DNA from: Aradus depressus
Taxonomy: Eukaryota > Arthropoda > Insecta > Hemiptera > Aradidae
DNA length: 64,000 nt
Reading direction: 5' to 3'
Assembly: GCA_963662175.1 (NCBI GenBank)
Contig: OY759226.1
Location: 22,794,946 to 22,858,945 of the forward strand
In this document: positions 10,601 to 61,079 of the stretch, one piece after another
Layout of the letters: every line of letters begins with the position of its first letter
Numbering within the stretch: position 1 is the first letter of the stretch
The notes under the pieces: model-generated
What the model was told of the DNA's origin: nothing
Database searches by the model: none
Seen by the model: only the letters and a program-made list of their open reading frames with translations
Made by a program: the position numbers and the translations under genes

Positions 10601-12449
10601 TTTCCATTATGTCCGCACCTGTTCACTGTCCTGAAGACCCTTTTCTTACTGGCAACTTTAGGTTTCCATCTACAGTACCTCATTTCACTATCTCCATTTC
10701 CAATAAGCTTCAGATCAAATGTTCCGGTACATGTGTATTCTAAAACATCCAACTTCAACGATCCATCATATGGAGGGCAACTAGAGTATATTGTCCCACC
10801 TTTTGGTACAACGATTGCACTCTGTCCATCACGAATAGTAGGACGATAATAACCGTGATCCCCTGTCTCTAACTTTTCAGTAACGACAGGTTGGTATGAC
10901 CCGTCACGATCCGTATAAGATTCCCCAATCAAAATTATACACTCAGAGGTGCTCATTTTTATTTTGAAATCAGTGTAAAATGAACCCATTGGGATTAGAC
11001 CCACCATAAATAGTATGATACACAATCTCAACATATTTCTCATCGCACTAAATCTGCCACAATGGATCCCAGCTCCTGACGTGGCCTGTTATATACGAAA
11101 ATCTAGGCAGGAAGGTGAACTGTTTTTGGAGCAGCAGGTATTATTTTGTCACTGGAGCATTATGTTCCAGGCTCACTTTACTTCCCCTCTGGGTATTAAC
11201 ACAAAACCTCTCTTAAATGCCGTTGTAATGAATGTATTGACATGAAATATATAGCCTATAGCTCTACTATGCAGAGAGGTGACCTGTTATTGAAGTAGCA
11301 GCTATTATTTTGTCACTGGAGCATTATGTTCTTGGCTCACTTTACTTGCCCTCTGGATATTAACACAAAACCTCTAATAACTGCCGTTGTAATGAATGTA
11401 TCGACATGAAATATATAGCCTATAGCTCTACTAGGCAGGGAGGTGACCTGTTATTGTAGTAGCAGGTATTATTTTGTCACTGGAGCATTATGTTGCAGGC
11501 TCACTTTACTTCCCCTCTGGGTATTAACACAAAACCTCTAATAACTGCCGTTGTAATGAATGTATCGACATGAAATATATAGCCTATAGCTCTACTAGGC
11601 AGGGAGGTGACCTGTTATTGTAGTAGCATGTATTATTTTGTCATTGGAGCATTATGTTCCAGGCTCACTTTACTTCCCCTCTGGGTATTAACACAAAACC
11701 TCTATTAAATGCCGTTGTAATGAATGTATTGACATGAAATATATAGCCTATAGCTCTACTATGCAGAGAGGTGACCTGTTATTGAAGTAGCAGCTATTAT
11801 TTTGTCACTGGAGCATTATGTTCTTGGCTCACTTTACTTGCCCTCTGGATATTAACACAAAACCTCTAATAACTGCCGTTGTAATGAATGTATCATGACA
11901 TGAAATATATAGCCTATAGCTCTACTAGGCAGGGAGGTGACCTGTTATTGTAGTAGCAGCTATTATTTTGTCACTGGAGCATTATGTTGCAGGCTCACTT
12001 TACTTCCCCTCTGGGTATTAACACAAAACCTCTAATAACTGCCGTTGTAATGAATGTATCGACATGAAATATATAGCCTATAGCTCTACTAGGCAGGGAG
12101 GTGACCTGTTATTGTAGTAGCAGCTATTATTTTGTCACTGGAGCATTATGTTCCAGGCTCACTTTACTTCCCCTCTGGGTATTAACACAAAACCTCTATT
12201 AAATTGTTATTGAAGTAGCAGGTTTTATTTTGTCACTGATAGTCCCCTGATATGTGTTTGTCTGTTACAGGGTAAGGATCTTTCAGTATACGTTACCTGC
12301 GCTGTTTTCAACTATAATGGCACTGAAGTGATGGGTTCCTATAATGATGACGATATCTACCTTTTTGATACAAAACATACATCTGGCTCGAATTACGTAC
12401 ATAGGTATGAAGGACACAGAAACTGCGAAACAGGTAAATTTGTTGAACA

Positions 12450-38355: not shown

Positions 38356-38719
38356 AGTCTTTTTGCATCATCTATGAGGGATAGGGGTGCGGGTGTGGGG
38401 CGGGCGGGACTTTTGATGGTCCGGGGTGGGCCGGGTTGGTGCCCCCTGCGGGTGGAACACGCCTGGCTCCCTGGGCGCGTTAGCCCCGGAGCTCGCGGGG
38501 ATGTGGACTCTTCCACGTAGGATCTCGATGTCAAATGGTTTCTATCCACATCCCCCGTTGCGACCTTCGTAAGTGTAAGATGTTAATAGGTGAGCCTGGG
38601 GGTTTCGCCTGCTGGGGGTTGCGGTTCGGTCCCCCCGGGGGTCGGGGGTCCCGGCGGTCCTTCCCCGCATCTCGTCCCCAGATACAAAAGGGACCTGGCT
38701 AATGTGCTTCGCACAAGGC

Positions 38720-38767
<48 letters not shown>

Positions 38768-38776
38768 ATACTAGAT
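38356..38776 (+). other. 3' UTR, A tail and right target-site duplication of the I-like element
   Basis: GC-rich UTR with C/G runs (GGTTCGGTCCCCCCGGGG), an A tract from 38721 and then AAGAATACTAGAT (38764-38776). Confidence 0.85.
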
Positions 38777-39519
38777 GTGAAATTCCATGACAATCCGACC
38801 ATTAGTTAATGAGCTAGCACTACATTTATACTTAGGCCCCAGGTGGGTGCGTGGGGGGTAAGGGTGGGATGAAACTATGTTCTAAACCTTCTCGGTGACT
38901 ACGAACATAAATGCTGAACACAAGAACAAAATCAGATCGAAGTTTAGGAGTCTATTAAATACAAACATTAATTTTTATAATTTTTCAAAAAAACTACCGA
39001 GTGACGATTTTAACATTACTTAGATATATTCCTTACAGACATTTAGTTTACAATCTTTGGGGCGCTATAACCTTTGTCCTATTGATCATATCTCAACTCT
39101 GATGACTAATTAGCGATTGGAAATTTTATAAAAATCATTTTTGGTAAGAATCAATTATTTTATAGGACTAACTGTTTTCGGGAAAATAAAGGAAAAGTCT
39201 AAATATATTTGTGTTTCAAACCTACATTTCCAATACAGTTTTCAGTATGTATCACCGGAAGACATCCCTACAACTATTACTCGAAAAGATTTTTGATGTC
39301 GGCTGATTTTGGCCAAAATCTAATCAGATCTAAGTTAGATGTGACTTCTTCATTCCAAATTTCAAGTTCATAGCTACAATCGTTTTTGCTGTAGAGAGCT
39401 CACAACTTTTCAATCACTTACTTGAAACGTAAATTATTCCGTTGAAAATTCGATCTCGGATTTTCGCACGATTACAACACTTCCTTATACTAAATCTTGT
39501 AGGTGGAAAACTGAAGGGA
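38777..39519. other. Intergenic sequence, nothing recognised
   Basis: The first 60 bp resemble 32760-32840; the rest is AT-rich without coding or clear repeats. Confidence 0.5.
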
Positions 39520-39930
39520 TGATAGGCAACTGAAGGGATGATAGGCAACTGCTTGCCATCCCGGGTCAGTCATCATTCTGGTCCTTGAGGCGGGCGGTTC
39601 TCACAGCTTGAGCTAAAATGGTACTACGGGGGTGGTTGCTTCCAAGCAGCACCACCATCTGAGATTGGATTCGTAGTGGCTGTGGTTACTGGCACCAGCA
39701 CCGGAAGCCAGTCCCTGTCAGATTCTGGATGCTGGGAGCAGAACGAAGTAGTGGGTGTTCCAATTCTTCCCCTATTCCAATTAACTCCCCCCTAGACCAA
39801 TTTCCACCCCAGGAGGATGTCCTAAATATTTTTAGAAGGTTGGATTCTATCCTCGGCGGGGTATGGGCGAGAGCCTCAGTATCGCTGATGATTGATTTCT
39901 ACCAACTAAAAAAAAAAATAATAAAATAAA
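39520..39930 (+). mobile_element. Probable retroposed fragment with A-rich tail
   Basis: A GC-richer block begins with a 23-bp tandem word (CTGAAGGGATGATAGGCAA twice at 39510-39550) and ends in an A-rich tail at 39909-39935. Content and tail suggest an untranslated region of a non-LTR element or retroposed transcript; the source was not identified. The 66-codon reading frame is not supported as a gene. Confidence 0.4.
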
Positions 39931-39944
39931 AAATAACTTTCAGA

Positions 39945-40130
39945 TGAGTCTCTCTTCTCCTTCTCAAAATTATTTCATACTGGCATTATTGAGTATAAGA
40001 ATGTCTAATCTCAGGATTTCGTTGTACAAAGAGACAAAATGAAATGATTTTGAAAAGGGAGGGAGACACAGTGGTCTGTAAGCGTCGTTGGTACAAGAAA
40101 GTCTTGTAATGGCCACGTCACATATATTTT
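39945..40130. mobile_element. Palindromic MITE, third copy
   Basis: AAAATTATTTCATACTGGCA and its partner TGAAATGATTTTGAAAAGGG with GTAAGCGTCGTTGGTACAAG at the right end, matching 32055-32254. The left tip is degraded. Confidence 0.65.
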
Positions 40131-40220
40131 GTTTTCCTTTAACATTATAATTCTATTATGATGTAGGTTTTGTTTATTTACATTCAGTTTTTATTATATT
40201 TCAGCTTATTTAAATGTACT

Positions 40221-40227
<7 letters not shown>

Positions 40228-40280
<53 letters not shown>
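40228..40280. repeat. TA microsatellite
   Basis: About 26 TA units directly before the 1.1-kb repeat. Confidence 0.95.
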
Positions 40281-40283
<3 letters not shown>

Positions 40284-41255
40284 AATAATTGTAGTGTTGC
40301 GCGTCGTGTTTTTAATAATAAAAAATGATATCTATATTTACTTTAAATCTAAACTGCGGAGATTTTCTCAAAAATGCTTTGTCTTTACTAATTTAAAATG
40401 TCCAAAGGATGCCAGATCGCCTGTGTAATAGAACGATCATTTAAATTTACTGATTTTAATATACAAATTGGATTTCTATAACCAAAGGCGAAAGATTCGT
40501 TCAGCGAAAAAGAGTTTTGAAAAACTAAATTCTTAAATCAATATTGACTTTGGATGGAGCATAGGAACAAACTACGGAAATTTAGTAACTCATATTTAAA
40601 ATGAATATAATTACAATAAAAGAAATTAATAACTAAAATAAAAATAAAAATTATAATATAAAATATAAACCTTATTGGATATACGTTGTATGGAGACAGG
40701 GGTTGGAGAGATAGACTGGATGATGAGTAGATCCGCTTGGGAGTAGACAGGATGACTGTCTAGATCTGCGAGGGTCTTCGAGTGTGGGAGGATGACTGCT
40801 AAGATCCGGACTTGGGCTGGTCGTCTGGACTCTAACTCTTGACCGGAGACTCCTCTGAACTCTTCCCCATCGAGCTCTGGACCTGAACTGAAGACTTCAA
40901 CTGGTGGATCTCGACTCCTGAACTCTTCAGCTCTGCACTTCCCCCACTACTTTGCTATACTCCCTGGCGGAGATCCGGGAGCAGACTTCAAAAGGGGAAG
41001 TTTATCCATTGAAGAGCGGATAGGTTGACACTCGAGGCAAATTTATGTGAGCCCAGGTGTGCACCCTGGAGGTTTATATGACCCTAACAGAGGGCTTGGG
41101 CTCTAATCTGGTACCCTTCTGTCATGCTGGTAATTTTACTCTCCGTCAGGTAAATTGATGGAGGTGAAAAGGGGTCCTTTCTTTTATAGCTGTTACCTGC
41201 CTCCAAAATTTAGGATTTATTTCTCCATTATTGTCTATATGTATTATTGACTTTA
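40280..41255. repeat. Dispersed repeat of about 1.0 kb (copy 2)
   Basis: Same-orientation partner of 18131-19260. This copy lacks the roughly 50-bp stretch at 18150-18200 and shows many small differences, so the duplication is old. Confidence 0.65.
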
Positions 41256-41300
41256 CTTTTTAAAAATACATTTATATGTAGATGCAGTCGCAAATCCATT

Positions 41301-42921
41301 ACACTACAATATATCGGTGGGACAAGATCTGGGAGAGCCTCTTACGGGACTTCAAGATCCCCAGGTATCTGATGAAGATCATCAGGAACTACCTAAGCGA
41401 GAGGATGCTGTTCGCGGACACCACTGACGGAACCAGGGAATTCAAGGTCACTACAGGAGTTCCACAAGGGTCAGTCCTTGGCCCCACACTGTGGAACATC
41501 CTGTACAATGGCTTGCTGAGCCTGCCAATGCCAGAAGACCTTACCTTGGTGGCGTATGCTGACGATGTAGGGATCGTCATAGTGGCTGATGATCTGGAAA
41601 ACCTGGAACGCAAATTCCAGGCTGCCATGGAGCGGATACACCATTGGATGAGCTCTGTGGGCCTTTCCCTGGCCATCCACAAGACGGATGCAGTACTCTT
41701 CACCGGGAGGAAGGCCAGAACCAACATGTCACTGACCTTCCAGGGTTATACTATCGAGACCCAACCGGCAATCAGGTACCTGGGAGTAATGCTGGATCAG
41801 AGGCTCACTTTTAGGGAGCACCTCAAATACGTGGGAGCGAAGGCCGCCAGGACATCGGCGGCGATTTCGAGAATTCTGCCCAACGTCGGTGGCCCTAGGC
41901 AGAGCAGGAGAAGACTGCTGGCAGGAGTCAGCACTTCCATCCTTCTGCACGGGGCCCCAACATGGGCAGATGCAACGAGGATTCCCTCATACCTGAGGCT
42001 GATCGCCCCCGCTCACAGGCGAAGCGCACTGAGAGTCGCATGCGCCTACCGAACAGTTTCTGGCGACGCTGCCTATGTAATTGCTGGGCTGCCCCCCATT
42101 GACCTCTTGGCACGGGAACGTACGCGACACTTCAAAAGGAAACAAGACCCGGTTCAGGTGGAAGAGGTGGTGCAGCGCTTCGACCACAGGGGAAACCGGG
42201 TCTTCTATCAGGACGCGGGGGCCAGCCCTGGTCCAGCAGAGCCAGAGAGGGCCAGGACAATTAGGGAGTGGCAGGAAGAATGAGACAAGTCCACAAAGGG
42301 ACGGTGGACCCATCGGCTCATCCCTCGAGTCGAGCCTTGGCTCACCAGAAAGCATGGGGAGGTGAATTACCACCTCACCCAGGTACTCACGGGACACGGT
42401 GGGTTCCGGGGGTACCTCCACAAAATCGGGGCAGCAATAACACCAGACTGCCCCGCGTGCCTTAGTGAGACGGAGTCGGCGGAGCATGTCCTCCTCAAAT
42501 GCCCCAGATTTGAGGAGGGAAGGAAAAATCTGGAGTGCAGCATGGGCGCCCCACTGACTGCTACCAGTTACGTGGACGCTATGCTGCGCTCCCAGGAGTC
42601 GTGGGATGAAGGCTGCGATTTTGCAGCGCTCATCATGGGCGGGTTGGCCCTTCAGGAGAGGGCTGACAAGGAACAGTAGCGGTAATAAAACAGAAGAAGG
42701 GGCGTTACCAGCCACCCTTCCTCCCTTCCGCGAAGTAATGACAGACCGTCAGTTCCGCGGAAGGGAATCAGGATCGGCAAGGAGGGGGTTTTAGTGGGTA
42801 TGGTGATGGTGAACCGTCTCGAGTCCCACACTATCCAGGGCTACCTTCCCTGGATGTGCGTCACAGCATTTCCCCCTCCAATGCAAAAAAAAAAAAAAAA
42901 AAAAAAAAACACTACAATATA
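41301..42921 (+). mobile_element. 5'-truncated R1/Jockey-like retrotransposon
   Basis: The insert 41314-42908 is flanked by the 13-bp duplication ACACTACAATATA (41301-41313 and 42909-42921) and ends in an A tail (42885-42908). Truncation is inside the reverse transcriptase, the usual outcome of incomplete target-primed synthesis. Confidence 0.88.
41314..42679 (+). pseudogene. Reverse transcriptase C-terminal half of ORF2, with one nonsense codon
   Basis: Starts in the RT fingers/palm and shows GVPQGSVLGP (near 41455), catalytic YADDVG (near 41557), RYLGVMLD, then the C-terminal domain with C-x2-C-x9-H-x4-C (CPACLSETESAEHVLLKCP) and the stop at 42677-42679. An in-frame TGA at 42281-42283 interrupts the otherwise open frame. 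There is no RNase H, which separates it from the I-like element and fits R1/Jockey types. Confidence 0.85.
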
Positions 42922-43190
42922 GATCGTGGGTTCGAAACCCGGCTAAGGCCCTTAGGTTTTTTTTTATATAGGAGGTGAAAAAACCTTGAGTACAACGTGC
43001 TTAGATGGGACGTTAAGCGATGGTCTCGAGTCATTATTGACTCCTACCTAGGTGAATAAACGTGGGTTGCCAAAATTTAGAGTCGGGCTCATGTCCTCCA
43101 AAACGACGAAAGAGCGCTCTGTTAGTAGGCGATATGACCTTGTAGTTAACGCCCGGGCATGAGTCATAATAACTAACTAACCATTAACAA
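42922..43190 (+). repeat. SINE, plus strand, A box region missing
   Basis: B box GGGTTCGAAACCC at 42928, then body and tail to GCCCGGGCATGAGTCATAAT. It starts at the right target duplication of the preceding retrotransposon, which therefore landed in this SINE or its edge. Confidence 0.8.
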
Positions 43191-44159: not shown

Positions 44160-44269
44160 AAGCTCAGAAGTCAAGCACGCTTACCAATCAGCTACCGGCG
44201 CCCTCGGAATAAGTAAATAACGACTCGTAAGATGGAGTCCTAAACTTTCCCAACCCAGGTTTAGTTACC
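44160..44269 (-). repeat. SINE pieces left of the giant inverted-repeat element
   Basis: A head piece (GCTCAGAAGTCAAGCACGCT to GCTACCGGCGCCC) is joined to a tail piece ending GGTTTAGTTACC. The SINE continues on the other side of the element at 57818, and GTTACC (44264-44269) is present again at 57818-57823. Confidence 0.8.
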
Positions 44270-44777
44270 AGTAGAGAATATATGGGAGAGCTGCCCCCGC
44301 CACATCGGTGGCACCGGTGGCACCTCCCCCCACCCCTGTGTGGCACCCGTCTGAGGCTCCCCTGTGAGGCTCCCACCGCACAACATCTATTCCCATGGCT
44401 CGCGCAGCTCAACCTATGATGTACTTCCCCAGCTCAAACTATGATGTACTTCCCCAGCTCAAACTATGATGTACTTCCCCAGCTCAACATCTGAGCACCC
44501 TCACCTTCGGACCCACCACTTTTTTTTGCGTATGGAGAAAATATAGTCCATGACGTCACACCGACATGTCCAGACCTGCTTTTCCTAAGAGGTACTTCCC
44601 CAGCTCAACCTGTGAGCACCCGCACCTTCGGACCCACACAATCCTTTGATTTTTTTAAATTTAAATATTAGTAAATTATAATAAGCACACTAGCGCTCCC
44701 ATGCGTCTAGAATGTAAATTAATATTTATATAAGTAGCTAGGTGCGGCTTCTTAATAAAAAAAATAATAACTTGTAC

Positions 44778-44860
44778 TTACGGTATCGAACCCATCTACT
44801 TTGACTTGAGAGGCCGATACGCTAACCACGTGACCATTGTGACATGGTTACTGAAGGTGG
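44778..44860 (-). repeat. tRNA-like SINE head 1 in the left arm
   Basis: Minus strand: A box TGGTTAGCGTATCGG and B box GGGTTCGATACC, about the spacing of a tRNA gene, with a CTC at the anticodon region like glutamate tRNA. The acceptor stem does not close, so it is a tRNA-derived retroposon head. It is followed by CAAGTTATTATTTTT and a tail with CTAGACGCTTGGGAGCGCTAG. Mirrored at 57256-57338. Confidence 0.65.
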
Positions 44861-45778
44861 TGATAATCTAGGTATATAAATCTCCGGGGAGTATTAGCAG
44901 CACCAAGGTTCAGCGGTTTCTTGCCTTTTCACATATTTTGATCACCCCTCACCCCAAATTTCTTTCAAGTCATCCTTACTATATATTTTTTTAATTCACA
45001 TTACCCTCTCCTAATTTTCCGCGATCGTATAGCAATGTGGTTCCACTGAGGTATGGAGGACGTATAGCAATGCGGTTTCTCTGAGGTATGGAGGTCGTAT
45101 AGCAATGTGGTTCCTCTGAGGTATGAAGTAAGTAGTAATAACATAGTGGTTCCTCTGAGGTATGGAGTAAGTATAACAATGTACCTCCCCAGCTACATCC
45201 TATGCATAGACAAAGTATAGTCCTTTCCCCTCCCCTCCCATTCCCCGCCCCTTTTCCAGAAAAATCCTTGAGGGCGCTCAACTGGGTTGAAGAAGACCTA
45301 ACCAGAGAGCCCCCACTCGACCAAATTTTTTCATCCTTCTTAACCCAAAGAAGTTTCCGCTCTCCCCAACACAACAACAGTCACTTCTTAGGAACATTTC
45401 TTCTAATTTTTTATTTCTATCTAGTCTTACACACCACATCAATGATGTCCTTTAAACCTTTTTTTCTCAAGTTGGCGTAGCCAATCGCCCTTCCCAAAAC
45501 TTTTGCATCTCTCAGACCCCCTCATCACATTACAGAAGCCACTATGAGGTCAACCTATACTAGAGTTGTTCACTTTGAATCACATTCAATGTACCATCCC
45601 ACATCAACTCTTCACCCAATGTACCTCCCCAGCTCAACCCCTATAAGTCATCTCTCGCTTGAATCACTTACCCAGCGCTCACCAACCACGCCACTATTTT
45701 CTTACTTTGCCCACTAGAGCTCCCAAGCTTCTAGAATTTATAGATTGCTAGATGCGACTTAAGGAAAAAAATAACTTG

Positions 45779-45855
45779 CCCTAACGGGGATTGAACGCGG
45801 TCCCGGCACCTTTGGCATGGGAGACAAGCAGCTAACCCCGAGACCTACCCTGTTG
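45779..45855 (-). repeat. tRNA-like SINE head 2 in the left arm
   Basis: Minus strand: GGGTTAGCTGCTTGTC as A box and GCGTTCAATCCCC as B box. It is followed by CAAGTTATTTTTTTCC and CTAGAAGCTTGGGAGCTCTAG, the same tail type as head 1. This defines a second SINE family, distinct from the main one. Mirrored at 56261-56337. Confidence 0.65.
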
Positions 45856-48800
45856 AAGCAGGCGAAAATCTAGGTATACAAGTCAACAGATATCTCAAGA
45901 GGCATTGTAATCCGACTAAAGATTATTTTTCTGATCACTCATACAGACCCATCTCACACGATATTTTACATTACAGTCCTACTTCCACACATCAATCATT
46001 ATAAAATCATAATTCGTAAATCCTACTTCCCCAGATCAATTTTACTTCTCCTTCTAAACCTGAACAACCTCAATAGGAACCCTTACACTCAATCCAAAAT
46101 ATTTTTTCAAGACCGGCATACATTCACTTTTACTTCCTCATACTAATTCTCCGTCAACCCTCAGAACAGCGTCATAGTCAGTCCATCTCAATTTTCTCAC
46201 TTATACTTCCCCACATAAATTAGATAATTTTTTTACTCCAGCTTGTCTACACCCGAGCAATTTTCTTAAGATTTCATAATAGCCCATTACTTTTGACCTT
46301 AGCACCATCCTTCTTTGCCCAACTCATACAACCTCTCCTCTAGATCGTCTGACATTTTTTTCGGTCTATTCATACATTCTACGCCCACGAACCTTCCCCT
46401 ATGAATCAGTCGTACTTACCCACCACAAATCACCTTCAATGTACATACCCACGCCAACACTTCCTTTAAAATCATAATTTCTCATTACAATCCTACTTCC
46501 ACACATCAATCATTCTAAAATCATAATCTTTAATTATAGTTCGACTTCCTCAGACCAATTGTACTTCTTCCACTACTACAGATCCCCCTACACCTAGTTC
46601 TCGGGTCTTTCTCATATTTTATACTTAACAACATGAATTTTTTTAATTTTTTCTCGTTTTGTCCTAACCAATTTTCGACTCTCACCTCTAACCCTTCTAC
46701 TCACACACTATTCTGCTTCCACTACTACAGACCCACCCACACCACTACCCTAAGGATTTTCTTTTGATTTCGTCATAGTCTAATCGGTACTCTTAACCTT
46801 TTCCTTAGCACCATCCTTCTTCACACGTTTTCTTCGTCCAACTCCCACAATCTCTCTAGACATGATTCGTTTAACATTTTTTCATCATAACCGGGTTTAC
46901 CCATACATACACCGGTATCATCCTACAGACCCATTCAACTTAGACTTTTTTATCCCTTAATTCTAGTCACCAATCTTTAGCATCATTACTCTACATACCA
47001 ATTTCCTAGTACACATTAAAATGTTATTTTTGAATTAATGCCAGGGCGGTAACCTCCTTTGACCCTACTCAATATAAACTATCAACCCAAAAACAAAGTA
47101 AATAGGTATTCCCTCCCAGCTAAATTCTCGTTCCCTCTCCTGTATAGTATACCTTAAGCTCTACAGTGAACCATCCCGACCCTAACACAATGTCTATCGC
47201 CTTATACATATTATTGTATTTATCATGGTAAGTTATATCACAAAACATTTTCCTACAACTAACATTCAACAGTACCCAAATTAAGATCAGCACACTACTC
47301 TGGATGTAGAACACATTCCCGTACATACGACATTTTCATCATACCCATTAAGATACTTGAATCTACAACACACCTCTCCCTTGCTCTATAATACTCTTTA
47401 GGACTAGATGTTCCTTTTCCGCGGTCTCATGGAGACATTCTTCGATCAACATGTGGTATATTTAACTTAAATTATTTTACATGCTGCTTTTTGTATACCT
47501 TAATTTCACTTGGACTGCTTTTCATCTCCAGCCATCGCTTGGGCTGCTTCTCGCCAACCTCTCTACATTCACCTCATACTGAAACATACTTTATGAGGGG
47601 TACATCTCTACCAATCCTCGGTTTTACTGGTTAAACACTTGTTTTCTCCTGCCACCAACAGTCTACAGTAATTGCTCTCATAGCCTTAGAGACCTCGCCC
47701 AATCCATACCAATTTGCCGCTCTTCAATTCTACTTACCATACATTATACCGAGATAGGCTTCTACAAGTATAGACCACACCTCCGTCAACATTTGATTCA
47801 AACCACTTCTATCCCAATAAACCTTTCACTGAGACATACATACATACTAGCATACAACATCAGCCAAGGGATTTTCTTCAGAATTCATCATAACCTAACC
47901 GGCACTCTTAGCCTATTCTTTAGCATGTACCAAAAAACCTCGTGATTCACACATTTCTTCAACCAACTTATACAACCTCATCGATATTCTTACTTCAAAT
48001 CCTATGATCCTAGCACCCCAGGTCTTCATTTACACCCTGTTTTATATGTATTTAAATATTTTCACATACCTAATCCGGCAATGACAACATCCACAGTTCT
48101 CGTCGATATTTAGATTCGCATTTCCAATGTTACTTTAGCCTCACTATATTTTTCGACTAAAACCTAAAGTAGGAATACATTTCAGTTACATCGATAGGTT
48201 TAATTCATACATCATCACCAACTTCCTACCACCAATAGACCTCACCTACTGTATTACGGACATCTCATCTAGGACTTCATACTCTTTCCTCTACAACCTA
48301 TTACACACATACAACATTATATATACTAAAAACCTTGTCAGCCTATACTAATTTATTTAATTAATTAGCTTATTCCCTACCATCCTTTGACATCGCCCTA
48401 GTATGCAACAATACCATTGTAAATGTTTCATTAGGTTTTACATTTCACATTTTCATATATATCACAGACCACAATCATTATTGAACCCTCCCTACTACTT
48501 CACTACCTATGGATTCTGTCAATTAAACACGTACAGCACAGCCGAGTAATTCAGACCGACCTCACACCCTCATGTGCCCTTTGCATTTTCTAATACTCTT
48601 GTATACAATACCCATAATTCCAACGTCTTCCATTTATCATCTTCATACCTAACACCTATGATCTATTCTTTTCTTTAGAACCATCTATACCCTAAAACCC
48701 CTGCTTCACACTTCACTCAACTCCCAGCACCACAACCTCTCCGAAATTTTTGTAATGTGTACTGCTGGGGAGCAGTACATCATAGTTCTCCAAAGACTTG

Positions 48801-51244
48801 TATTATCTTAACATAAATCATATATATCCATTTTCAACAGAATTACTAACATATATTTTACAAGATTAGATTCATAATCGTAAATCCCCGGTATTTTTCA
48901 GAGTTCTCAGAGTTATTTGACCCCAATTCGATGTCACAAGAAGCTTCAAAACAGTCTGTGTTCTATTAGTTTTTCCTTGTGTATTTAATACAATAAATTC
49001 ATGTATATACCTTACCGCCTCTGAAGCAGTCCTACACAAACTCCCCAATACTTGGTACATTCGGACCTGATTTCATGCTGGAAGTCTTATAAGAGTATAT
49101 TAATACGTCTTCATACATCTGTCAAACTACATTTTCATAACCATCAACATTCTCCCAACATATAAATTTCTTACCAGAACTTTCAAGAAGACCGGACCAT
49201 ATTCATTCGAAGCTCAACCTTATAGGATGTGTATTCACAGTATTATCATGAATAAACTGAAAACAAATCCACTCCTTGTATGATGTACAACTCAATGGGG
49301 ATACCTAAATACCATTCCTATCAATCCTTGGCTTAACATCTTTAAACTTCAAGTTTCACAGAATGTAACTTAGACACAGTATTTGTGTGCTCATGGGACT
49401 GTGGAGCGGGCATTTCTCAAGTTTTAAAGTGTTTAACACAAAATCCATCTTTTGTTTTAAATTACATACTTTATCATCAGCTGTACCCAATATACCTCTT
49501 TTCATAAAGTATCCAGTGTTTTATTAGACATGTAGCATATTTCGATTAGTATCCTTGTAGGTCACCCATTTTTCGACAATTGAAACTCTTATAATAACAC
49601 CCTGACGTAGGTATTCATTCCAGTCACACAGCTGCAAAATTGTTTTATTCCTTTAAAAATTAACCAACAAAACCATCCTATGCGAAGAAGTCATTGAACA
49701 ATTTACCCACTTAGCCGGATAATTATTTTTTAAATGGTAAAATCTAGGCCTTGTAGGCCCCAAAACACATCAGACCTTTACATTTATAATAAAGTAGCAC
49801 AGATCCCGATAACCAAAGTAGGAACCATTATAACATCCAACTAATGCTAGAATAATATAGGCTAGGATAAAATATATATTTTACATACTTTACAACACAT
49901 CATTCGAGAACGTAACCTACCACCATACACCATTAAAATTTTTTTTTACACAAACAACACATTATAGAGGTATTCAACCTTATTACTACGAAACCACCGG
50001 TTCAAAACTTCAAACACATTGATACTCATCGCACTAAAACTATACATTTTTTTAGTACAATCCATATCATACCTTGACATAACCTTTGGCAACAACAATA
50101 CTTCAAAACCCAGGTTTTTGCGTTTTTCTTTAGGTCCTTTACATTACGCATTTTTCATATACATCACAGACCCCATCATTATTGAACCCTATACTCATAA
50201 AATCATTCATTAAAACTACTTCACTACCTAACTACTTTTTTCATCTAAGCACGTACAGCACAGTCGGTAGGTTATAGTTCACACCGACCTTACTCATACA
50301 ACACACATACTTACATACATTTACATACACTTCAATTTTAATTCATACCCTATAAAATTATAACCGTCAGCCCCTGTATTATTCTCAAACTATGTCAAAA
50401 GCGCTACAAACCCACTGACTTTTTTGTTCACATGTGACACCTATTATAGTCTTATAGGCCTGCATCAAACACCATCCACACCTTACAGCGAACTCTATCA
50501 CAAGTAGCTCCGTCCATCTCTTTGGCATGTGTCATATTTCGATTCGTATCCTTTTTTAAACCATTTTTCATATATGTGACTTTTTATCGCCCACATACCT
50601 GTGAAACAATTCTTTAAACATAATTTAAGTACATCAACTAATATTCTTAATATATTTTACTTATTTCATTCATTCATTTCCTTTATCTCACTTAGGATGC
50701 TCCTCACCAGCATCAGAGCTTTACACCAGGAGTCCCCTCAGACCTGTATCATACTGAAAATATACTTTTTACCCCCTCAAATAATTTTTCTGGTTCTGAT
50801 CAGTCTTACCTACCAACAGCAATTGTTAGCTCTCTCAGGAACCTTATAATTTCTCACACCATCACACATCAATTACCCCACTTATTCCAATCCTACATGT
50901 CGAAACAGAGAATATTTCCGGAGAGTCTTAACCCCAATAGGAGCCCTTGTACCGAACCTCCCATCCCTCCTTTCTAGAGGTCAGACACTTAAAATTTCTT
51001 TGACATCTACCCACTTTTTACCCCAAACCAACCTACATCCTAGTCCATCATGCATCATAACTCTAGCATAGACCACCTAATCCTTAACGCGAACTCAGGC
51101 ATTTACTTTATGTCACTTCGGGTGCTTTTCACCACCCTCGACACAGATCACGCCTGAAGTGAGCCGCTTATAGTCGAACACACCCCGATTATAGACGAGT
51201 CAAACGACCGGAGGACACCTGTTAACAACGTATACCAAGTTAAA

Positions 51245-52245
51245 CTAGATAAAAATCCAATATTTATATAAAAATGTGGAATTATACATAAATCGGACCA
51301 AAAAGTGTATAATTATTGAAAAATGTGGTGTTTTTACATAACTCAGGCAAAAAAACGTGGTAATGAGACAAATTAGACATTATAAACTGGATAATGTTGT
51401 TAAATCAACACAGCCGGCAGAAGACCTCTCCGAGATACAGTGTGCTCGGACGTATATAGTTTAAACTCTCCTCACATCTACATTTTCTAAGGAGTTTCAT
51501 AGAACTTGAAGTAAATTTTGTAACATCTACTGACTGACGATTACGAGAGATGTGTGCTGCAAAGCCGGGTTGGGGTCTCTAAACGGAGTAACTACTACAG
51601 CCGGGTTTGGGGGTCTGTATATAATATAGCTGGTGTGAGGGTCTGTACATAATATAGTCGAGGCTTATACTTACTGACTTTTAGCAAGAGATGGGGGCTG
51701 TGTAGCCGAGCCGTGTGAGAGGCTATATGGCTGTATGCATCTCTTCCTAGATAAAAATCCAATATTTATATAAAAATGTGGAATTATGCATAAATCGAAC
51801 CAAAAAGTGTATAATTATTGAAAAATGTGGTATTTTTACATAACTCAGTCAAAAAAACGTGGTAATGAGACAAATTTGACATTATAAACTGGATAATGAT
51901 GATACATCAGCACAGCCGCCAGAAGACTGCTCTCTGAGGGACAGTGTGCTCGGGCGTATACAGTTTAAACTCTCCTCGCATATACATTTTCTACGGAGTT
52001 TCATAGAATTTGAAGTAAATTTGTAACATCTACTGACTGACTCTGACGAGAGATGAGGGCTGCAAAGCCGGGTTGGGGTCTCTAAACGGAGTAACTACTA
52101 CAGCCGGGTTTGGGGGTCTGTATATAATATAGCCGGTGTGAGGGTCTGTACATAATATAGTCGAGGCTTCTACTTACTGACTTTTGGCAAGAGATGGGGG
52201 CTGTATAGCCGAGCCGTGTGAGGGCCTGTATGCATTTCTTCTATG
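51245..52245. repeat. 502-bp tandem duplication in the spacer
   Basis: Unit 1 is 51245-51746, unit 2 is 51747 to about 52245. Both start CTAGATAAAAATCCAATATT and end near CTGTATGCAT(C/T)TCTTC. They differ at scattered single bases and small indels. Confidence 0.93.
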
Positions 52246-52489
52246 CGGAGTCAGAGGGATCGGGAAGGAGACACTGCTAGAATCATACCGATATCAAATT
52301 TCATAAAAACATGAGGAAAATTAGTTGAGATAGGGAGAAATTGAAACACCTCTGGCTGAGTGGTTAGCAGTGCCGGTGACCATGAAGGGAGAGCTGAATC
52401 ATTCTAAGTGGAGAAGTACATTGGTAATGATTCAAAGAACAAAAATTTATATGAAAAATCTAGTTGGAGTGGAAACCTCAGGATGGTTA

Positions 52490-52605
52490 GCAGTGGTTAG
52501 GGCTGGGTTTAAGTGGTTTGAGGTGATTGGGGCTGGGTTCAAGAGGTTTGAGGTGGTTAGGGCTGGGTTTCAATGGTTAAAGGTGATTAAGGTTGTGTTT
52601 TCAAC
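52490..52605. repeat. Minisatellite of about 32 bp
   Basis: GGTTAGGGCTGGGTTT followed by (A/C)A(A/G)TGGTTTGAGGTG-like sequence, about 3.5 diverged copies. Confidence 0.8.
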
Positions 52606-55600
52606 TGGGGAGGGATAACTACCATACGACCTGAGGCGCAAGATTGGTATGTAATTTAAAACAAAAGATGGATTTTGTGTTAAACACTTTAAAACTTGAG
52701 AAATGCCCGCTCCACAGTCCCATGAGCACACAAATACTGTGTCTAAGTTACATTCTGTGAAACTTGAAGTTTAAAGATGTTAAGCCAAGGATTGATAGGA
52801 ATGGTATTTAGGTATCCCCATTGAGTTGTACATCATACAAGGAGTGGATTTGTTTTCAGTTTATTCATGATAATACTGTGAATACACATCCTATAAGGTT
52901 GAGCTTCGAATGAATATGGTCCGGTCTTCTTGAAAGTTCTGGTAAGAAATTTATATGTTGGGAGAATGTTGATGGTTATGAAAATGTAGTTTGACAGATG
53001 TATGAAGACGTATTAATATACTCTTATAAGACTTCCAGCATGAAATCAGGTCCGAATGTACCAAGTATTGGGGAGTTTGTGTAGGACTGCTTCAGAGGCG
53101 GTAAGGTATATACATGAATTTATTGTATTAAATACACAAGGAAAAACTAATAGAACACAGACTGTTTTGAAGCTTCTTGTGACATCGAATTGGGGTCAAA
53201 TAACTCTGAGAACTCTGAAAAATACCGGGGATTTACGATTATGAATCTAATCTTGTAAAATATATGTTAGTAATTCTGTTGAAAATGGATATATATGATT
53301 TATGTTAAGATAATACAAGTCTTTGGAGAACTATGATGTACTGCTCCCCAGCAGTACACATTACAAAAATTTCGGAGAGGTTGTGGTGCTGGGAGTTGAG
53401 TGAAGTGTGAAGCAGGGGTTTTAGGGTATAGATGGTTCTAAAGAAAAGAATAGATCATAGGTGTTAGGTATGAAGATGATAAATGGAAGACGTTGGAATT
53501 ATGGGTATTGTATACAAGAGTATTAGAAAATGCAAAGGGCACATGAGGGTGTGAGGTCGGTCTGAATTACTCGGCTGTGCTGTACGTGTTTAATTGACAG
53601 AATCCATAGGTAGTGAAGTAGTAGGGAGGGTTCAATAATGATTGTGGTCTGTGATATATATGAAAATGTGAAATGTAAAACCTAATGAAACATTTACAAT
53701 GGTATTGTTGCATACTAGGGCGATGTCAAAGGATGGTAGGGAATAAGCTAATTAATTAAATAAATTAGTATAGGCTGACAAGGTTTTTAGTATATATAAT
53801 GTTGTATGTGTGTAATAGGTTGTAGAGGAAAGAGTATGAAGTCCTAGATGAGATGTCCGTAATACAGTAGGTGAGGTCTATTGGTGGTAGGAAGTTGGTG
53901 ATGATGTATGAATTAAACCTATCGATGTAACTGAAATGTATTCCTACTTTAGGTTTTAGTCGAAAAATATAGTGAGGCTAAAGTAACATTGGAAATGCGA
54001 ATCTAAATATCGACGAGAACTGTGGATGTTGTCATTGCCGGATTAGGTATGTGAAAATATTTAAATACATATAAAACAGGGTGTAAATGAAGACCTGGGG
54101 TGCTAGGATCATAGGATTTGAAGTAAGAATATCGATGAGGTTGTATAAGTTGGTTGAAGAAATGTGTGAATCACGAGGTTTTTTGGTACATGCTAAAGAA
54201 TAGGCTAAGAGTGCCGGTTAGGTTATGATGAATTCTGAAGAAAATCCCTTGGCTGATGTTGTATGCTAGTATGTATGTATGTCTCAGTGAAAGGTTTATT
54301 GGGATAGAAGTGGTTTGAATCAAATGTTGACGGAGGTGTGGTCTATACTTGTAGAAGCCTATCTCGGTATAATGTATGGTAAGTAGAATTGAAGAGCGGC
54401 AAATTGGTATGGATTGGGCGAGGTCTCTAAGGCTATGAGAGCAATTACTGTAGACTGTTGGTGGCAGGAGAAAACAAGTGTTTAACCAGTAAAACCGAGG
54501 ATTGGTAGAGATGTACCCCTCATAAAGTATGTTTCAGTATGAGGTGAATGTAGAGAGGTTGGCGAGAAGCAGCCCAAGCGATGGCTGGAGATGAAAAGCA
54601 GTCCAAGTGAAATTAAGGTATACAAAAAGCAGCATGTAAAATAATTTAAGTTAAATATACCACATGTTGATCGAAGAATGTCTCCATGAGACCGCGGAAA
54701 AGGAACATCTAGTCCTAAAGAGTATTATAGAGCAAGGGAGAGGTGTGTTGTAGATTCAAGTATCTTAATGGGTATGATGAAAATGTCGTATGTACGGGAA
54801 TGTGTTCTACATCCAGAGTAGTGTGCTGATCTTAATTTGGGTACTGTTGAATGTTAGTTGTAGGAAAATGTTTTGTGATATAACTTACCATGATAAATAC
54901 AATAATATGTATAAGGCGATAGACATTGTGTTAGGGTCGGGATGGTTCACTGTAGAGCTTAAGGTATACTATACAGGAGAGGGAACGAGAATTTAGCTGG
55001 GAGGGAATACCTATTTACTTTGTTTTTGGGTTGATAGTTTATATTGAGTAGGGTCAAAGGAGGTTACCGCCCTGGCATTAATTCAAAAATAACATTTTAA
55101 TGTGTACTAGGAAATTGGTATGTAGAGTAATGATGCTAAAGATTGGTGACTAGAATTAAGGGATAAAAAAGTCTAAGTTGAATGGGTCTGTAGGATGATA
55201 CCGGTGTATGTATGGGTAAACCCGGTTATGATGAAAAAATGTTAAACGAATCATGTCTAGAGAGATTGTGGGAGTTGGACGAAGAAAACGTGTGAAGAAG
55301 GATGGTGCTAAGGAAAAGGTTAAGAGTACCGATTAGACTATGACGAAATCAAAAGAAAATCCTTAGGGTAGTGGTGTGGGTGGGTCTGTAGTAGTGGAAG
55401 CAGAATAGTGTGTGAGTAGAAGGGTTAGAGGTGAGAGTCGAAAATTGGTTAGGACAAAACGAGAAAAAATTAAAAAAATTCATGTTGTTAAGTATAAAAT
55501 ATGAGAAAGACCCGAGAACTAGGTGTAGGGGGATCTGTAGTAGTGGAAGAAGTACAATTGGTCTGAGGAAGTCGAACTATAATTAAAGATTATGATTTTA

Positions 55601-56260
55601 GAATGATTGATGTGTGGAAGTAGGATTGTAATGAGAAATTATGATTTTAAAGGAAGTGTTGGCGTGGGTATGTACATTGAAGGTGATTTGTGGTGGGTAA
55701 GTACGACTGATTCATAGGGGAAGGTTCGTGGGCGTAGAATGTATGAATAGACCGAAAAAAATGTCAGACGATCTAGAGGAGAGGTTGTATGAGTTGGGCA
55801 AAGAAGGATGGTGCTAAGGTCAAAAGTAATGGGCTATTATGAAATCTTAAGAAAATTGCTCGGGTGTAGACAAGCTGGAGTAAAAAAATTATCTAATTTA
55901 TGTGGGGAAGTATAAGTGAGAAAATTGAGATGGACTGACTATGACGCTGTTCTGAGGGTTGACGGAGAATTAGTATGAGGAAGTAAAAGTGAATGTATGC
56001 CGGTCTTGAAAAAATATTTTGGATTGAGTGTAAGGGTTCCTATTGAGGTTGTTCAGGTTTAGAAGGAGAAGTAAAATTGATCTGGGGAAGTAGGATTTAC
56101 GAATTATGATTTTATAATGATTGATGTGTGGAAGTAGGACTGTAATGTAAAATATCGTGTGAGATGGGTCTGTATGAGTGATCAGAAAAATAATCTTTAG
56201 TCGGATTACAATGCCTCTTGAGATATCTGTTGACTTGTATACCTAGATTTTCGCCTGCTT

Positions 56261-56410
56261 CAACAGGGTAGGTCTCGGGGTTAGCTGCTTGTCTCCCATG
56301 CCAAAGGTGCCGGGACCGCGTTCAATCCCCGTTAGGGCAAGTTATTTTTTTCCTTAAGTCGCATCTAGCAATCTATAAATTCTAGAAGCTTGGGAGCTCT
56401 AGTGGGCAAA
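56261..56410 (+). repeat. tRNA-derived SINE 2, right-arm copy of head 2
   Basis: Plus-strand mirror of 45779-45855, with body and CTAGAAGCTTGGGAGCTCTAG tail. Confidence 0.6.
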
Positions 56411-57255
56411 GTAAGAAAATAGTGGCGTGGTTGGTGAGCGCTGGGTAAGTGATTCAAGCGAGAGATGACTTATAGGGGTTGAGCTGGGGAGGTACATTGG
56501 GTGAAGAGTTGATGTGGGATGGTACATTGAATGTGATTCAAAGTGAACAACTCTAGTATAGGTTGACCTCATAGTGGCTTCTGTAATGTGATGAGGGGGT
56601 CTGAGAGATGCAAAAGTTTTGGGAAGGGCGATTGGCTACGCCAACTTGAGAAAAAAAGGTTTAAAGGACATCATTGATGTGGTGTGTAAGACTAGATAGA
56701 AATAAAAAATTAGAAGAAATGTTCCTAAGAAGTGACTGTTGTTGTGTTGGGGAGAGCGGAAACTTCTTTGGGTTAAGAAGGATGAAAAAATTTGGTCGAG
56801 TGGGGGCTCTCTGGTTAGGTCTTCTTCAACCCAGTTGAGCGCCCTCAAGGATTTTTCTGGAAAAGGGGCGGGGAATGGGAGGGGAGGGGAAAGGACTATA
56901 CTTTGTCTATGCATAGGATGTAGCTGGGGAGGTACATTGTTATACTTACTCCATACCTCAGAGGAACCACTATGTTATTACTACTTACTTCATACCTCAG
57001 AGGAACCACATTGCTATACGACCTCCATACCTCAGAGAAACCGCATTGCTATACGTCCTCCATACCTCAGTGGAACCACATTGCTATACGATCGCGGAAA
57101 ATTAGGAGAGGGTAATGTGAATTAAAAAAATATATAGTAAGGATGACTTGAAAGAAATTTGGGGTGAGGGGTGATCAAAATATGTGAAAAGGCAAGAAAC
57201 CGCTGAACCTTGGTGCTGCTAATACTCCCCGGAGATTTATATACCTAGATTATCA

Positions 57256-57432
57256 CCACCTTCAGTAACCATGTCACAATGGTCACGTGGTTAGCGTATC
57301 GGCCTCTCAAGTCAAAGTAGATGGGTTCGATACCGTAAGTACAAGTTATTATTTTTTTTATTAAGAAGCCGCACCTAGCTACTTATATAAATATTAATTT
57401 ACATTCTAGACGCTTGGGAGCGCTAGTGTGCT
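57256..57432 (+). repeat. tRNA-derived SINE 2, right-arm copy of head 1
   Basis: Plus-strand mirror of the 44778-44860 head, extended by its tail CTAGACGCTTGGGAGCGCTAG. Confidence 0.6.
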
Positions 57433-57817
57433 TATTATAATTTACTAATATTTAAATTTAAAAAAATCAAAGGATTGTGTGGGTCCGAAGGTGCGGGTGC
57501 TCACAGGTTGAGCTGGGGAAGTACCTCTTAGGAAAAGCAGGTCTGGACATGTCGGTGTGACGTCATGGACTCCATACACTATGTAGAAAAAAAAGTGGTG
57601 GGTCCGAAGGTGAGGGTGCTCAGATGTTGAGCTGGGGAAGTACATCATAGTTTGAGCTGGGGAAGTACATCGGAGGGAGCTGCGCGAGCCATGGGAATAG
57701 ATGTTGTGCGGTGGGAGCCTCACAGGGGAGCCTCAGACGGGTGCCACACAGGGGTGGGGGGAGGTGCCACCGGTGCCACCGATGTGGCGGGGGCAGCTCT
57801 CCCATATATTCTCTACT

Positions 57818-57995
57818 GTTACCTTTAACGAGCATACCTGACATTGTACAGCCTCGGGACCATCGCATAACGTCCCATCCAAAGGATGGCGTGCTCAAGC
57901 TATTTTAATCTTGATAAAATACCCAAGGGCTTTTGCCGGGTTTCGAACCCGCGATCTTATGTTCAGTAGACAAGTACGCTACCTTATCTACTTCC
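57818..57995 (-). repeat. SINE right of the giant element (split copy)
   Basis: Starts with GTTACC, the second copy of the 6-bp duplication, then TTTAACGAGCATACCTGACA, CATCCAAAGGATGGCGTGCT and the B box GGGTTTCGAACCC. Together with 44205-44269 it restores one SINE. Confidence 0.85.
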
Positions 57996-59325: not shown

Positions 59326-60585
59326 CTACACGAAATCTTTCAATCCATTGATGCGTGAGTCTATATAGGATTGCAGCAGTTCCTTTGAGGACCGTTTCAC
59401 TTCGTTCATTTTTTCATCCGGTAATGGTCCTTTGAGTACATCTACACAATCCGTCCTTGGAAAAATATCAAAATCGTCTAGCATGTTCACAATATCGTCT
59501 GGACCACAACATTCGATATGCCCTTGACTGTAGTCTTCTGAGGTTTCAGGCCATCCAATGTCCGCACAAACCGTGCTACAAAGTTTCTTCATTTCATATG
59601 GTTTGAATGGTAAAAGGTACCAATGAAAAAGGACACAAGATTTCTTGTTTGTATATTCTACCAACTTCAAACCACTTTTACGTAAGGGTGGATCACCAGG
59701 CATCATTGTATGCTCAAATTCGAACTCTCCTGACCCACTTGTGGTTATTCGCAGCTGCGCTCCATTAGATTGTACATAACGTCTAATGACATTCTCCAAA
59801 TAAAGTAAGTTACCTGCTACTATTGTACTCCAAGTGGTGTAATTGCTTGCTTCTATTAGTGCGTCTCTTTGTGTTGTGTACATGAAATCTTCCGTAGAAC
59901 CTAAGGGTCGGAACATCATATGACTACCCTTTTCCAAGATTTGTTGAGCTATATTTTCTCCAAATCTTGCATAGAGGTCGTTTTTATCAGATTGTGTAAC
60001 CTTCGGCAAAGGTTCCATTAATATTTTATGTATATGATTATGAGGAAGAGAATAACTAAGTCTATATGATAGGTATGATGCTTTATCATCAGTAGAACAT
60101 ATCTCAAAAAGTGATAAAAATCTTACTTGTTTCGCGTTGTGTCCATAATACGTGAGTACTCCCTTTCCATTATATCCGCACCTGTTCCCGGACCTTTTCG
60201 CACTGACTTTAGGTTTCCATCTACAGTACTCCATTTCAACTCCATTGCCTTCAGTTGGAATCAGAAGAGATTCTTTCCCACATGTGTACGTGCGAGTTTG
60301 CAACAGAGTAGCCCCTTCCTCTATGGGGCAACCAGTGTATATATTCTCATATCTTTGTACACCCATTACTTTCTTATCTCCAATAATTACATGAGGGTAA
60401 TACACATCCAACAGATGCAATTGAATGAATACGGGTTGATATACTATGACCTCATTGTTTAGCTTTCTTGTCGGTTCCAGGTTTTCAATGGAAATTTCAC
60501 AATCATATCCTTTGACTTCATCGATAATTGAACCCATAAGGATAAGACCCACCGTAAATAGTATGATACACAAACTCACCATCAT
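59326..60585 (-). CDS. Secreted nuclease-like protein B (paralogue of 9733-11043)
   Basis: Single-exon 419-residue protein with signal peptide (VSLCIILFTVGLILMG). Clear paralogue of protein A: shared CRWKPKV, NRCG(H/Y)NGKG, SLFEIC/TFFEIC, EDF-M-YTTQR (232-240), TTWSTIVAGNLLYLE (250-264), [16 protein letters not shown] (349-364) and the C-terminal [15 protein letters not shown]. At the place of the nuclease R-G-H motif it reads F-R-P (225-227), so the catalytic histidine is gone here, and the metal asparagine is again valine. It keeps most cysteines, suggesting a stable secreted fold without hydrolysis. Upstream it has the same TATA block and about three 164-bp repeats. Function unknown. Confidence 0.72.
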   Translation of the reverse strand: MMVSLCIILFTVGLILMGSIIDEVKGYDCEISIENLEPTRKLNNEVIVYQPVFIQLHLLDVYYPHVIIGDKKVMGVQRYENIYTGCPIEEGATLLQTRTYTCGKESLLIPTEGNGVEMEYCRWKPKVSAKRSGNRCGYNGKGVLTYYGHNAKQVRFLSLFEICSTDDKASYLSYRLSYSLPHNHIHKILMEPLPKVTQSDKNDLYARFGENIAQQILEKGSHMMFRPLGSTEDFMYTTQRDALIEASNYTTWSTIVAGNLLYLENVIRRYVQSNGAQLRITTSGSGEFEFEHTMMPGDPPLRKSGLKLVEYTNKKSCVLFHWYLLPFKPYEMKKLCSTVCADIGWPETSEDYSQGHIECCGPDDIVNMLDDFDIFPRTDCVDVLKGPLPDEKMNEVKRSSKELLQSYIDSRINGLKDFV

Positions 60586-60614
60586 TCTGATCGCACTAAA
60601 TCTGTCACAATGGA

Positions 60615-61079
60615 GCCTAGCTCCTGACGTGGCCTGTTATATACGTAAACCTATGCAGGGAGGTGACCTGCTATTGGAGTATCAGGTTTTATTTTGTCAC
60701 TGGAGCATTATGTTCCTGGCTCACTTTACTTCCCCTCTGGATATTATAACAAAAACTCTAATAACTGCCGTTGTAATGAATGTATCGACATGAAATATAT
60801 TGCTTATAGCTCTACTAAGCAGGGAGGTGACATGTTATTGGAGTAGCAGGTATTATTTAGTAATTGGAGCATTATGTTCCTGGCTCACTTTACTTCCCCT
60901 CTGGATATTATAACAAAAACTCTAATAACTGCCGTTGTAATGAATGTATCGACATGAAATATATTGCTTATAGCTCTACTAAGCAGGGAGGTGACATGTT
61001 ATTGGAGTAGCGGGTATTATTTTGTCATTGGACCATTATGTTCCAGGCTCACTTCACTTCCCCTCTGGGTATTAACACG
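60615..61079. repeat. 164-bp tandem array upstream of nuclease-like gene B, about 3 copies
   Basis: Same unit as at 11070-12220 (markers GCTTATAGCTCTACTA at 60802 and 60966). The third unit is cut at GGGTATTAACAC by the retrotransposon that starts at 61080. Confidence 0.93.
60634..60650 (-). promoter_or_regulatory. TATA box of nuclease-like gene B
   Basis: GTATATAACAGGCCACGTCA on the minus strand, identical to the promoter block of gene A and about 50 bp from the ATG. Confidence 0.6.

Follow-up and report, generated by a model that had tools for sequence, protein, structure and literature searches.

A gene-less palindromic element in the genome of Aradus depressus, probably a non-autonomous satellite of the Maverick/Polinton lineage

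Among described systems, the closest to the element analyzed here are the Maverick/Polinton transposons. According to PMC8097293, intact vertebrate Mavericks measure 12.7 to 24.6 kb, have terminal inverted repeats (TIRs) of 46 to 1,447 bp, are flanked by 6-bp duplications, and end in (AGT)2 or (AG)3, with (AGT)2//(ACT)2 as the reported motif. Maverick replication is thought to proceed as protein-primed linear DNA, and the literature consulted mentions no direct sight of a replication intermediate. Our element lies in a stretch of 64,000 nucleotides from Aradus depressus (assembly GCA_963662175.1, contig OY759226.1, positions 22,794,946 to 22,858,945), which we call the window and to which coordinates without a prefix refer. 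Like described Mavericks, the element is flanked by a 6-bp duplication, ends in AG...CT near the motif, and falls within the size range; about 308 of its outer bp are also found in a copy that encodes an integrase and a capsid protein. However, no gene was found in the window copy, its arms of 5.2 kb (about 8.3 kb in complete copies) far exceed the reported TIRs, which are themselves of hundreds of bp, and the complete element is a palindrome over its whole length. Neither the protein-primed DNA polymerase B (PolB) nor the rve integrase of Mavericks was found in the window copy, and both genes occur in its relatives, so we regard it as a non-autonomous relative rather than an autonomous member. 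Overall, the element is probably a satellite of the Maverick/Polinton (adintovirus-like) lineage that is mobilized in trans and copied by fold-back. An initial annotation made from the window letters had offered a non-autonomous Polinton derivative as the first of two options, the other being an undescribed class, and the first option is supported by the 6-bp duplications, the AGTAG...CTACT ends, and the terminal sequence in common with the gene-bearing copy.

A gene-less mobile element has recently inserted in the window. It spans 44270-57817 (13,548 bp) with GTTACC on both sides, in agreement with the mobile element of 13.5 kb and the 6-bp duplication that had been annotated, and it interrupts a short interspersed element (SINE) that we read as tRNA-derived. 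The flanks had been said to join into one SINE. The joined flanks do align with the SINE copies of the window, and TTTAGTTACC from the left flank recurs in the copies near 26179, 26493, and 26807, but about 13 bp present at that place in those copies are gone from the junction. The right-hand GTTACC has no counterpart in the SINE sequence. Likewise, the borders had been called certain, which they are not from the window site alone, as a 4-bp TTAC duplication with CAG...CTG ends also fits its letters. The shorter duplication is refuted by other copies: the base outside AGTAG varies between insertions and the duplications elsewhere are 6 bp long, so the AG...CT border was chosen and holds once these copies are compared. 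The annotated AG...CT ends recur across the family as AGTAG...CTACT. In the ends displayed, the element starts with AGTAGA, one letter off the exact (AGT)2 hexamer, a motif from vertebrate elements.

A search of the genome with the outer 201 bp, as the initial annotation had proposed, gave at least 41 matches (40 of 179 candidates were scored, hence a lower bound). Exact 6-bp duplications were present at 10 of the 13 two-ended copies (a further pair, at C1:68.26, was left out), namely GTTACC at the window copy and TCTACC, CAGATA, CACATA, AATAAC, ACAACG, AAGGGC, GTTAGT, CATGTT, and GTTACG. Duplications of this length also flank a 197-bp miniature (CGCATC), a nested PolB-bearing element (TACATG), and a gene-bearing Maverick on C15 (GTTGAG). 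The miniature is a derivative of the kind known as miniature inverted-repeat transposable elements (MITEs), from which the window copy differs in being 13.5 kb long and palindromic.

Long inverted arms, internal tandem repeats, ORF-less copies (ORF, open reading frame), and a repeat number varying between arms are also traits of the foldback elements FB, Galileo, and Tetris. In the comparison literature (PMC10045372, PMC3706591, PMC2836005, PMC4455052, PMC4046053, PMC12220804, PMC4079207, PMC3573991), Tetris makes 8-10-bp duplications, Galileo copies are bounded by 7 bp, and the longest Galileo TIR of D. mojavensis measures 1.26 kb. There, Dada inserts into specific small-RNA genes and its U6 and U1 groups lack TIRs, IS3EU/GingerRoot elements have TA..TA or TG..CA ends with 6-bp duplications, and Ginger has TGT ends. 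While the long, internally repetitive arms and the lack of an ORF would suit a cut-and-paste transposon of the foldback kind from a different superfamily (Mutator, P, Dada, IS3EU, or Ginger) that is Maverick-like by resemblance only, the duplications are 6 bp instead of the 7-10 bp of Mutator/P-type foldback elements, and the arms are several-fold longer than the longest Galileo TIR. The flanks are varied and the TIRs long, unlike those of Dada, and the AG..CT ends are neither those of IS3EU/GingerRoot nor of Ginger. As about 308 outer bp are moreover common with a Maverick, such an origin is scarcely credible.

The gene-bearing Maverick, located at C15:71364-87515 behind end L006, comprises 16,152 bp. 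Its ORFs encode an rve integrase (1.5e-11), a Pox_A32 ATPase (4.2e-11), a double-jelly-roll capsid protein (1e-99), a phospholipase A2 domain (8.9e-13), and a matrixin (4.6e-33). In addition, its zinc-finger N-terminus aligns with the PolB of the nested element (36% over 192 residues); its polymerase is known from this N-terminus only, the remainder being expected at 73701-76399. At its right end, this Maverick can be aligned with 308 bp of the window element, of which the first 107 letters are identical. Over the stretches compared, the ends L006, L023, and L029 have only the outer ~310 bp in common with the window element, which is therefore not a simple deletion of the C15 Maverick. The matrixin metallopeptidase (L075:3475-4974) also carries a peptidoglycan-binding domain and is possibly host-derived cargo. 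At L023:2022-3170, ORFs for an A32-type ATPase and a phospholipase A2 lie directly outside the AGTAG-type end, and the L023 element seems to sit in or beside another Maverick.

The architecture of the family became visible when pieces of nine other copies were aligned to the window element; the two sides were compared in seven. At about 16.6 kb, a copy is a nearly perfect palindrome, with two ~8.3-kb arms on either side of a 42-nt asymmetric core. The sides are identical in C5:32.95 (8,040 of 8,040 letters) and C2:10.75 (8,110 of 8,110), and those of C5:4.72 (16.8 kb) agree at 99.5% over 7,581 columns with 35 mismatches; of C5:4.35, the left piece and the centre were seen. The core has the same letters, in either orientation, in five of seven pieces, C5:36.02 carries a variant core, and no core was found in C5:4.72, the centre of which falls at the end of the piece. 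Both orientations are expected, since insertion can occur in either direction when the rest of the element is a palindrome; core "flip/flop" was thus rejected as a replication signature, since in a palindrome it shows the direction of insertion only.

By comparison with these relatives, the window copy is a deleted derivative of a whole-element palindrome. One arm is complete, 35 of the 42 core letters remain, and the second arm is reduced to its outer 5,171 bp; from the core inwards, about 3.2 kb are missing. Inner deletions are also present in C3:32.69 and C5:12.51, while C14:12.37 holds a long terminal repeat (LTR) retroelement with reverse transcriptase and integrase, and C5:36.02 holds a second palindromic element. 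The inverted repeats had been annotated as 5.2 kb long, making up about three quarters of the element, and the measured arms of 5,200 bp (44270-49469) and 5,171 bp (52647-57817) account for 76.5% of it. They are near-identical: a block of 4,924 bp contains a single base difference (44702/57414), and the outer 275 bp contain one further base difference and indels in the number of 25-bp repeats. The parts of the insertion are as follows.

44264-44269, no strand: target-site duplication GTTACC, left copy; exact 6-bp repeat, with 6-bp duplications also at other copies
44270-44577, plus strand: outer region (element positions 1-308) that matches the C15 Maverick at its right end, beginning AGTAGAGAATATATGGGAGAGC
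44270-52613, plus strand: complete arm of the palindromic element, by alignment to the ~16.6-kb relatives
52614-52648, plus strand: what is left of the asymmetric core (35 of 42 nt), by comparison with relatives
52647-57817, minus strand: second arm, outer 5,171 bp only, the inner ~3.2 kb being gone, by alignment
57818-57823, no strand: target-site duplication GTTACC, right copy; exact repeat, absent from the SINE sequence

The whole-element palindrome appears to be a new architecture. No description of palindromic Maverick satellites was found in the literature searched, a narrow basis of partial texts mostly outside subscription journals, and "palindrom" is absent from the main text of PMC8097293 and PMC6431247. 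That the inverted arms are fold-back errors of the assembly is very improbable. One locus does have such an appearance, as the flanks of C1:80372391-80396754 are mirror images (821 bp at 100%); it is either a genuine inverted duplication or an assembly fold-back. However, when flank was compared with flank in ten pairs, seven showed no inverted match and two only short ones at a distance from the ends (30 bp, and 115 bp at 77%), and the flanks bear the duplications. Moreover, the palindrome centre is asymmetric and the inner deletions differ among copies.

A region of 2.2 kb was aligned for 17 arms, of which 16 come from eight copies represented on both sides and one from C5:4.35; C5:36.02 was not included. 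Within copies, no substitution separates the arms in six of the eight; the arms of C5:12.51 differ by three substitutions and one indel and those of C14:12.37 by five substitutions. Between copies, left arms are 0 to 61 substitutions apart, and at 65 of 73 gap-free variable columns the arms are concordant in every copy. As the arms agree within copies and mostly differ between them, both arms of a copy seem to have been made from one template. Although C5:4.72 is 54 to 61 substitutions away from the other left arms, its two arms match each other completely in the aligned region, which indicates that arm identity belongs to each copy and is not merely the mark of a young family. C5:32.95 and C2:10.75 are identical over the 2.2 kb at separate loci with distinct duplications, indicating recent movement.

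The second palindromic element, nested in C5:36.02, is about 14.8 kb long, with ends AGTAGGGGAGGAAAG and arms of 6,842 bp at 99.6% identity. Each arm contains one open frame of 1,221 aa pointing outward, in which Pfam recognizes DNA_pol_B_2 (6.3e-31) and Endonuclease_7 (4.4e-8); no further Pfam family reached the cut-off in the arm. In a sequence search against solved structures, the N-terminal zinc fingers were matched and nearly all listed matches were zinc fingers, with no polymerase among them; the translation contains what we take to be exonuclease and polymerase motifs. The Endonuclease_7 match is not claimed as a cruciform-resolving enzyme, as by our reading it lies between the exonuclease motifs, and such a match is presumably usual in polymerases of this kind. 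At least 38 PolB frames are present in the genome (38 scored of 1,985 first-look candidates, with only the C5:36.02 pair read as DNA), none with internal stops and with 92-100% identity. Of these, 28 are arranged as 14 divergent pairs whose members lie within 10 kb of each other, with equal scores in 11 of the 14, and 10 are single among the scored matches. Four frames each, in the order -,+,-,+, i.e., two adjacent pairs, lie at C13:36744393-36764869 and C2:41572063-41599430. Three pattern matches to PolB in IMG/VR were not confirmed.

The mirror-image relatives suggest multiplication by fold-back and copying of one half. The Maverick integrase would insert the satellite in trans, and it is the likely inserting enzyme because outer sequence and duplication length are held in common; less than 200 bp of end sequence may suffice in cis, given the single 197-bp miniature. 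A Maverick-type PolB, from either relative, would copy the satellite outside the chromosome, and in every round one ~8.3-kb arm would be copied around a fold-back (hairpin) centre, giving both arms of a new insertion the same sequence. Such copying would explain palindromy, identity within copies, and difference between copies in one step. Central deletion is a common outcome in unstable palindromes, and the window copy may have met this fate, either before or after it inserted, when its palindrome lost about 3.2 kb reaching from the core into one of the arms. As the main rival explanation, a Maverick-mobilized satellite might have its arms equalized after insertion by gene conversion or mismatch repair without fold-back copying. 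Conversion readily acts on inverted arms that lie a few kb from each other, and the divergent C5:4.72 is still 99.5% arm-identical over 7.6 kb. However, arm differences persist in C5:12.51, C14:12.37, and C5:4.72, whereas two ~16.6-kb copies show no mismatch between their arms over 8 kb and most PolB pairs have equal scores, so that equalization alone is a possible but rather unlikely account.

Several observations weigh against a Maverick satellite copied by fold-back. Gene conversion would likewise equalize the arms. Three of the 13 two-ended copies depart from the pattern, one lacking a matching duplication (C14:13.7), one having the mirrored flanks described above (C1:80.37), and one lacking recognizable ends (C14:11.36). 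The PolB element shows no integrase in Pfam. The 42-nt core alone folds no better than its shuffles (z 0.24), leaving a self-priming hairpin unsupported by energy. Finally, the sign of the GC skew of the arms is, by our reasoning, opposite to that expected from cytosine loss on the displaced strand in adenovirus-type replication.

More broadly, and only tentatively, we propose a class of inherited palindromic satellites of a DNA virus-like transposon, in which an ~8-kb arm would replicate as a fold-back and integrate as a mirror-image dimer, at three levels: capsid-encoding Mavericks, PolB-only palindromes, and gene-less palindromes. The PolB-only palindromes would then be an intermediate stage from virus-like element to satellite. 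Defective adenovirus genomes with long inverted ends offer a parallel, as they too are gene-poor, helper-dependent derivatives of a protein-primed linear replicon with self-complementary ends, whereas the satellite consists of inherited chromosomal insertions with duplications and would be a chromosomal counterpart of defective viral genomes. If the proposal is true, the divergence between arms would date each insertion, as LTRs do in retrotransposons. A gene-less, recently active family of mirror dimers would also make a step of Maverick replication testable, predicting an extrachromosomal fold-back form and arms identical at birth. Perfect palindromes of great length are usually considered unstable in chromosomes, and the persistence of several 16-kb palindromes bears on how they are tolerated.

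The absence of a recognizable protein noted in the initial annotation was confirmed. Six-frame Pfam searches of one arm plus spacer, with X at stops, gave no family at E<=1, while the three plus frames of 38400-43000, searched in the same way as a positive control, gave the reverse transcriptase of a long interspersed nuclear element (LINE). The ORFs are no longer than those of dinucleotide-shuffled sequence. A length of 129 aa, that of the longest ORF, was reached in 40% of the plain and 65% of the block shuffles, with 300 of each. A protein search with one arm ORF found no homologue at E<=0.001, and an Rfam scan of the element found nothing. Exact patterns matched no stretch in IMG/VR, apart from a 17-mer present in four stretches, and none in genome contigs; phages and plasmids gave no match either. 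The arms contain the following repeats and modules.

44405-44487, plus strand: 25-bp subterminal tandem repeats with GTACTTCCCCAGCTCAA, fewer in the right arm
44685-44882, minus strand: putative tRNA-like module 1, reading outward, by our reading
45026-45182, plus strand: 35-bp subterminal tandem repeats, with a mirror copy at 56934-57091
45709-45884, minus strand: putative tRNA-like module 2, homologous to module 1 by sequence alignment
51245-52241, plus strand: two ~500-bp units in tandem towards the inner side of the complete arm, with 94% identity over aligned columns

The two modules of each arm align with a score of 110 against a shuffle maximum of 38, and a T-run follows soon after a B-box-like stretch. 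We read them as tRNA-like; ARAGORN and Rfam called no tRNA at either. Element positions 407-682, which surround module 1, show about 75% similarity to a part of the PolB element that lies ~300-600 bp from its end. The GC skew is extreme, at -0.39 for the left arm and as low as -0.61 in 1-kb windows; it switches at ~51258 and is +0.39 in the right arm. The arm pieces of relatives show the same skew. Elsewhere in the window it is -0.02, with single 1-kb windows of 0.35 (a minisatellite) and 0.31 (near 21 kb). A count of substitutions between internal repeats did not explain the skew. A mitochondrial origin, suggested by it, was rejected; under translation table 5, the longest ORF has 215 aa and lies in an arm.

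By the LINE neighbouring the element, the host looks insect-like: most matches are unlabelled, and the named relatives are mostly insect proteins (beetles, flea, aphid, and butterfly; 29-34% identity), with one from a nematode (27%). Two similar-looking single-ORF genes of 436-451 aa with a hydrophobic N-terminus lie at 9733-11088 and 59326-60636; no Pfam family was found in either, and the protein of 9733-11088 had no homologue at E<=0.001 in a large protein search. The minisatellite at 8380-9600 has units of roughly 32 bp. At 28685-29008, a 75-nt inverted repeat, 99% complementary and spaced by 174 nt, is perhaps a small MITE.

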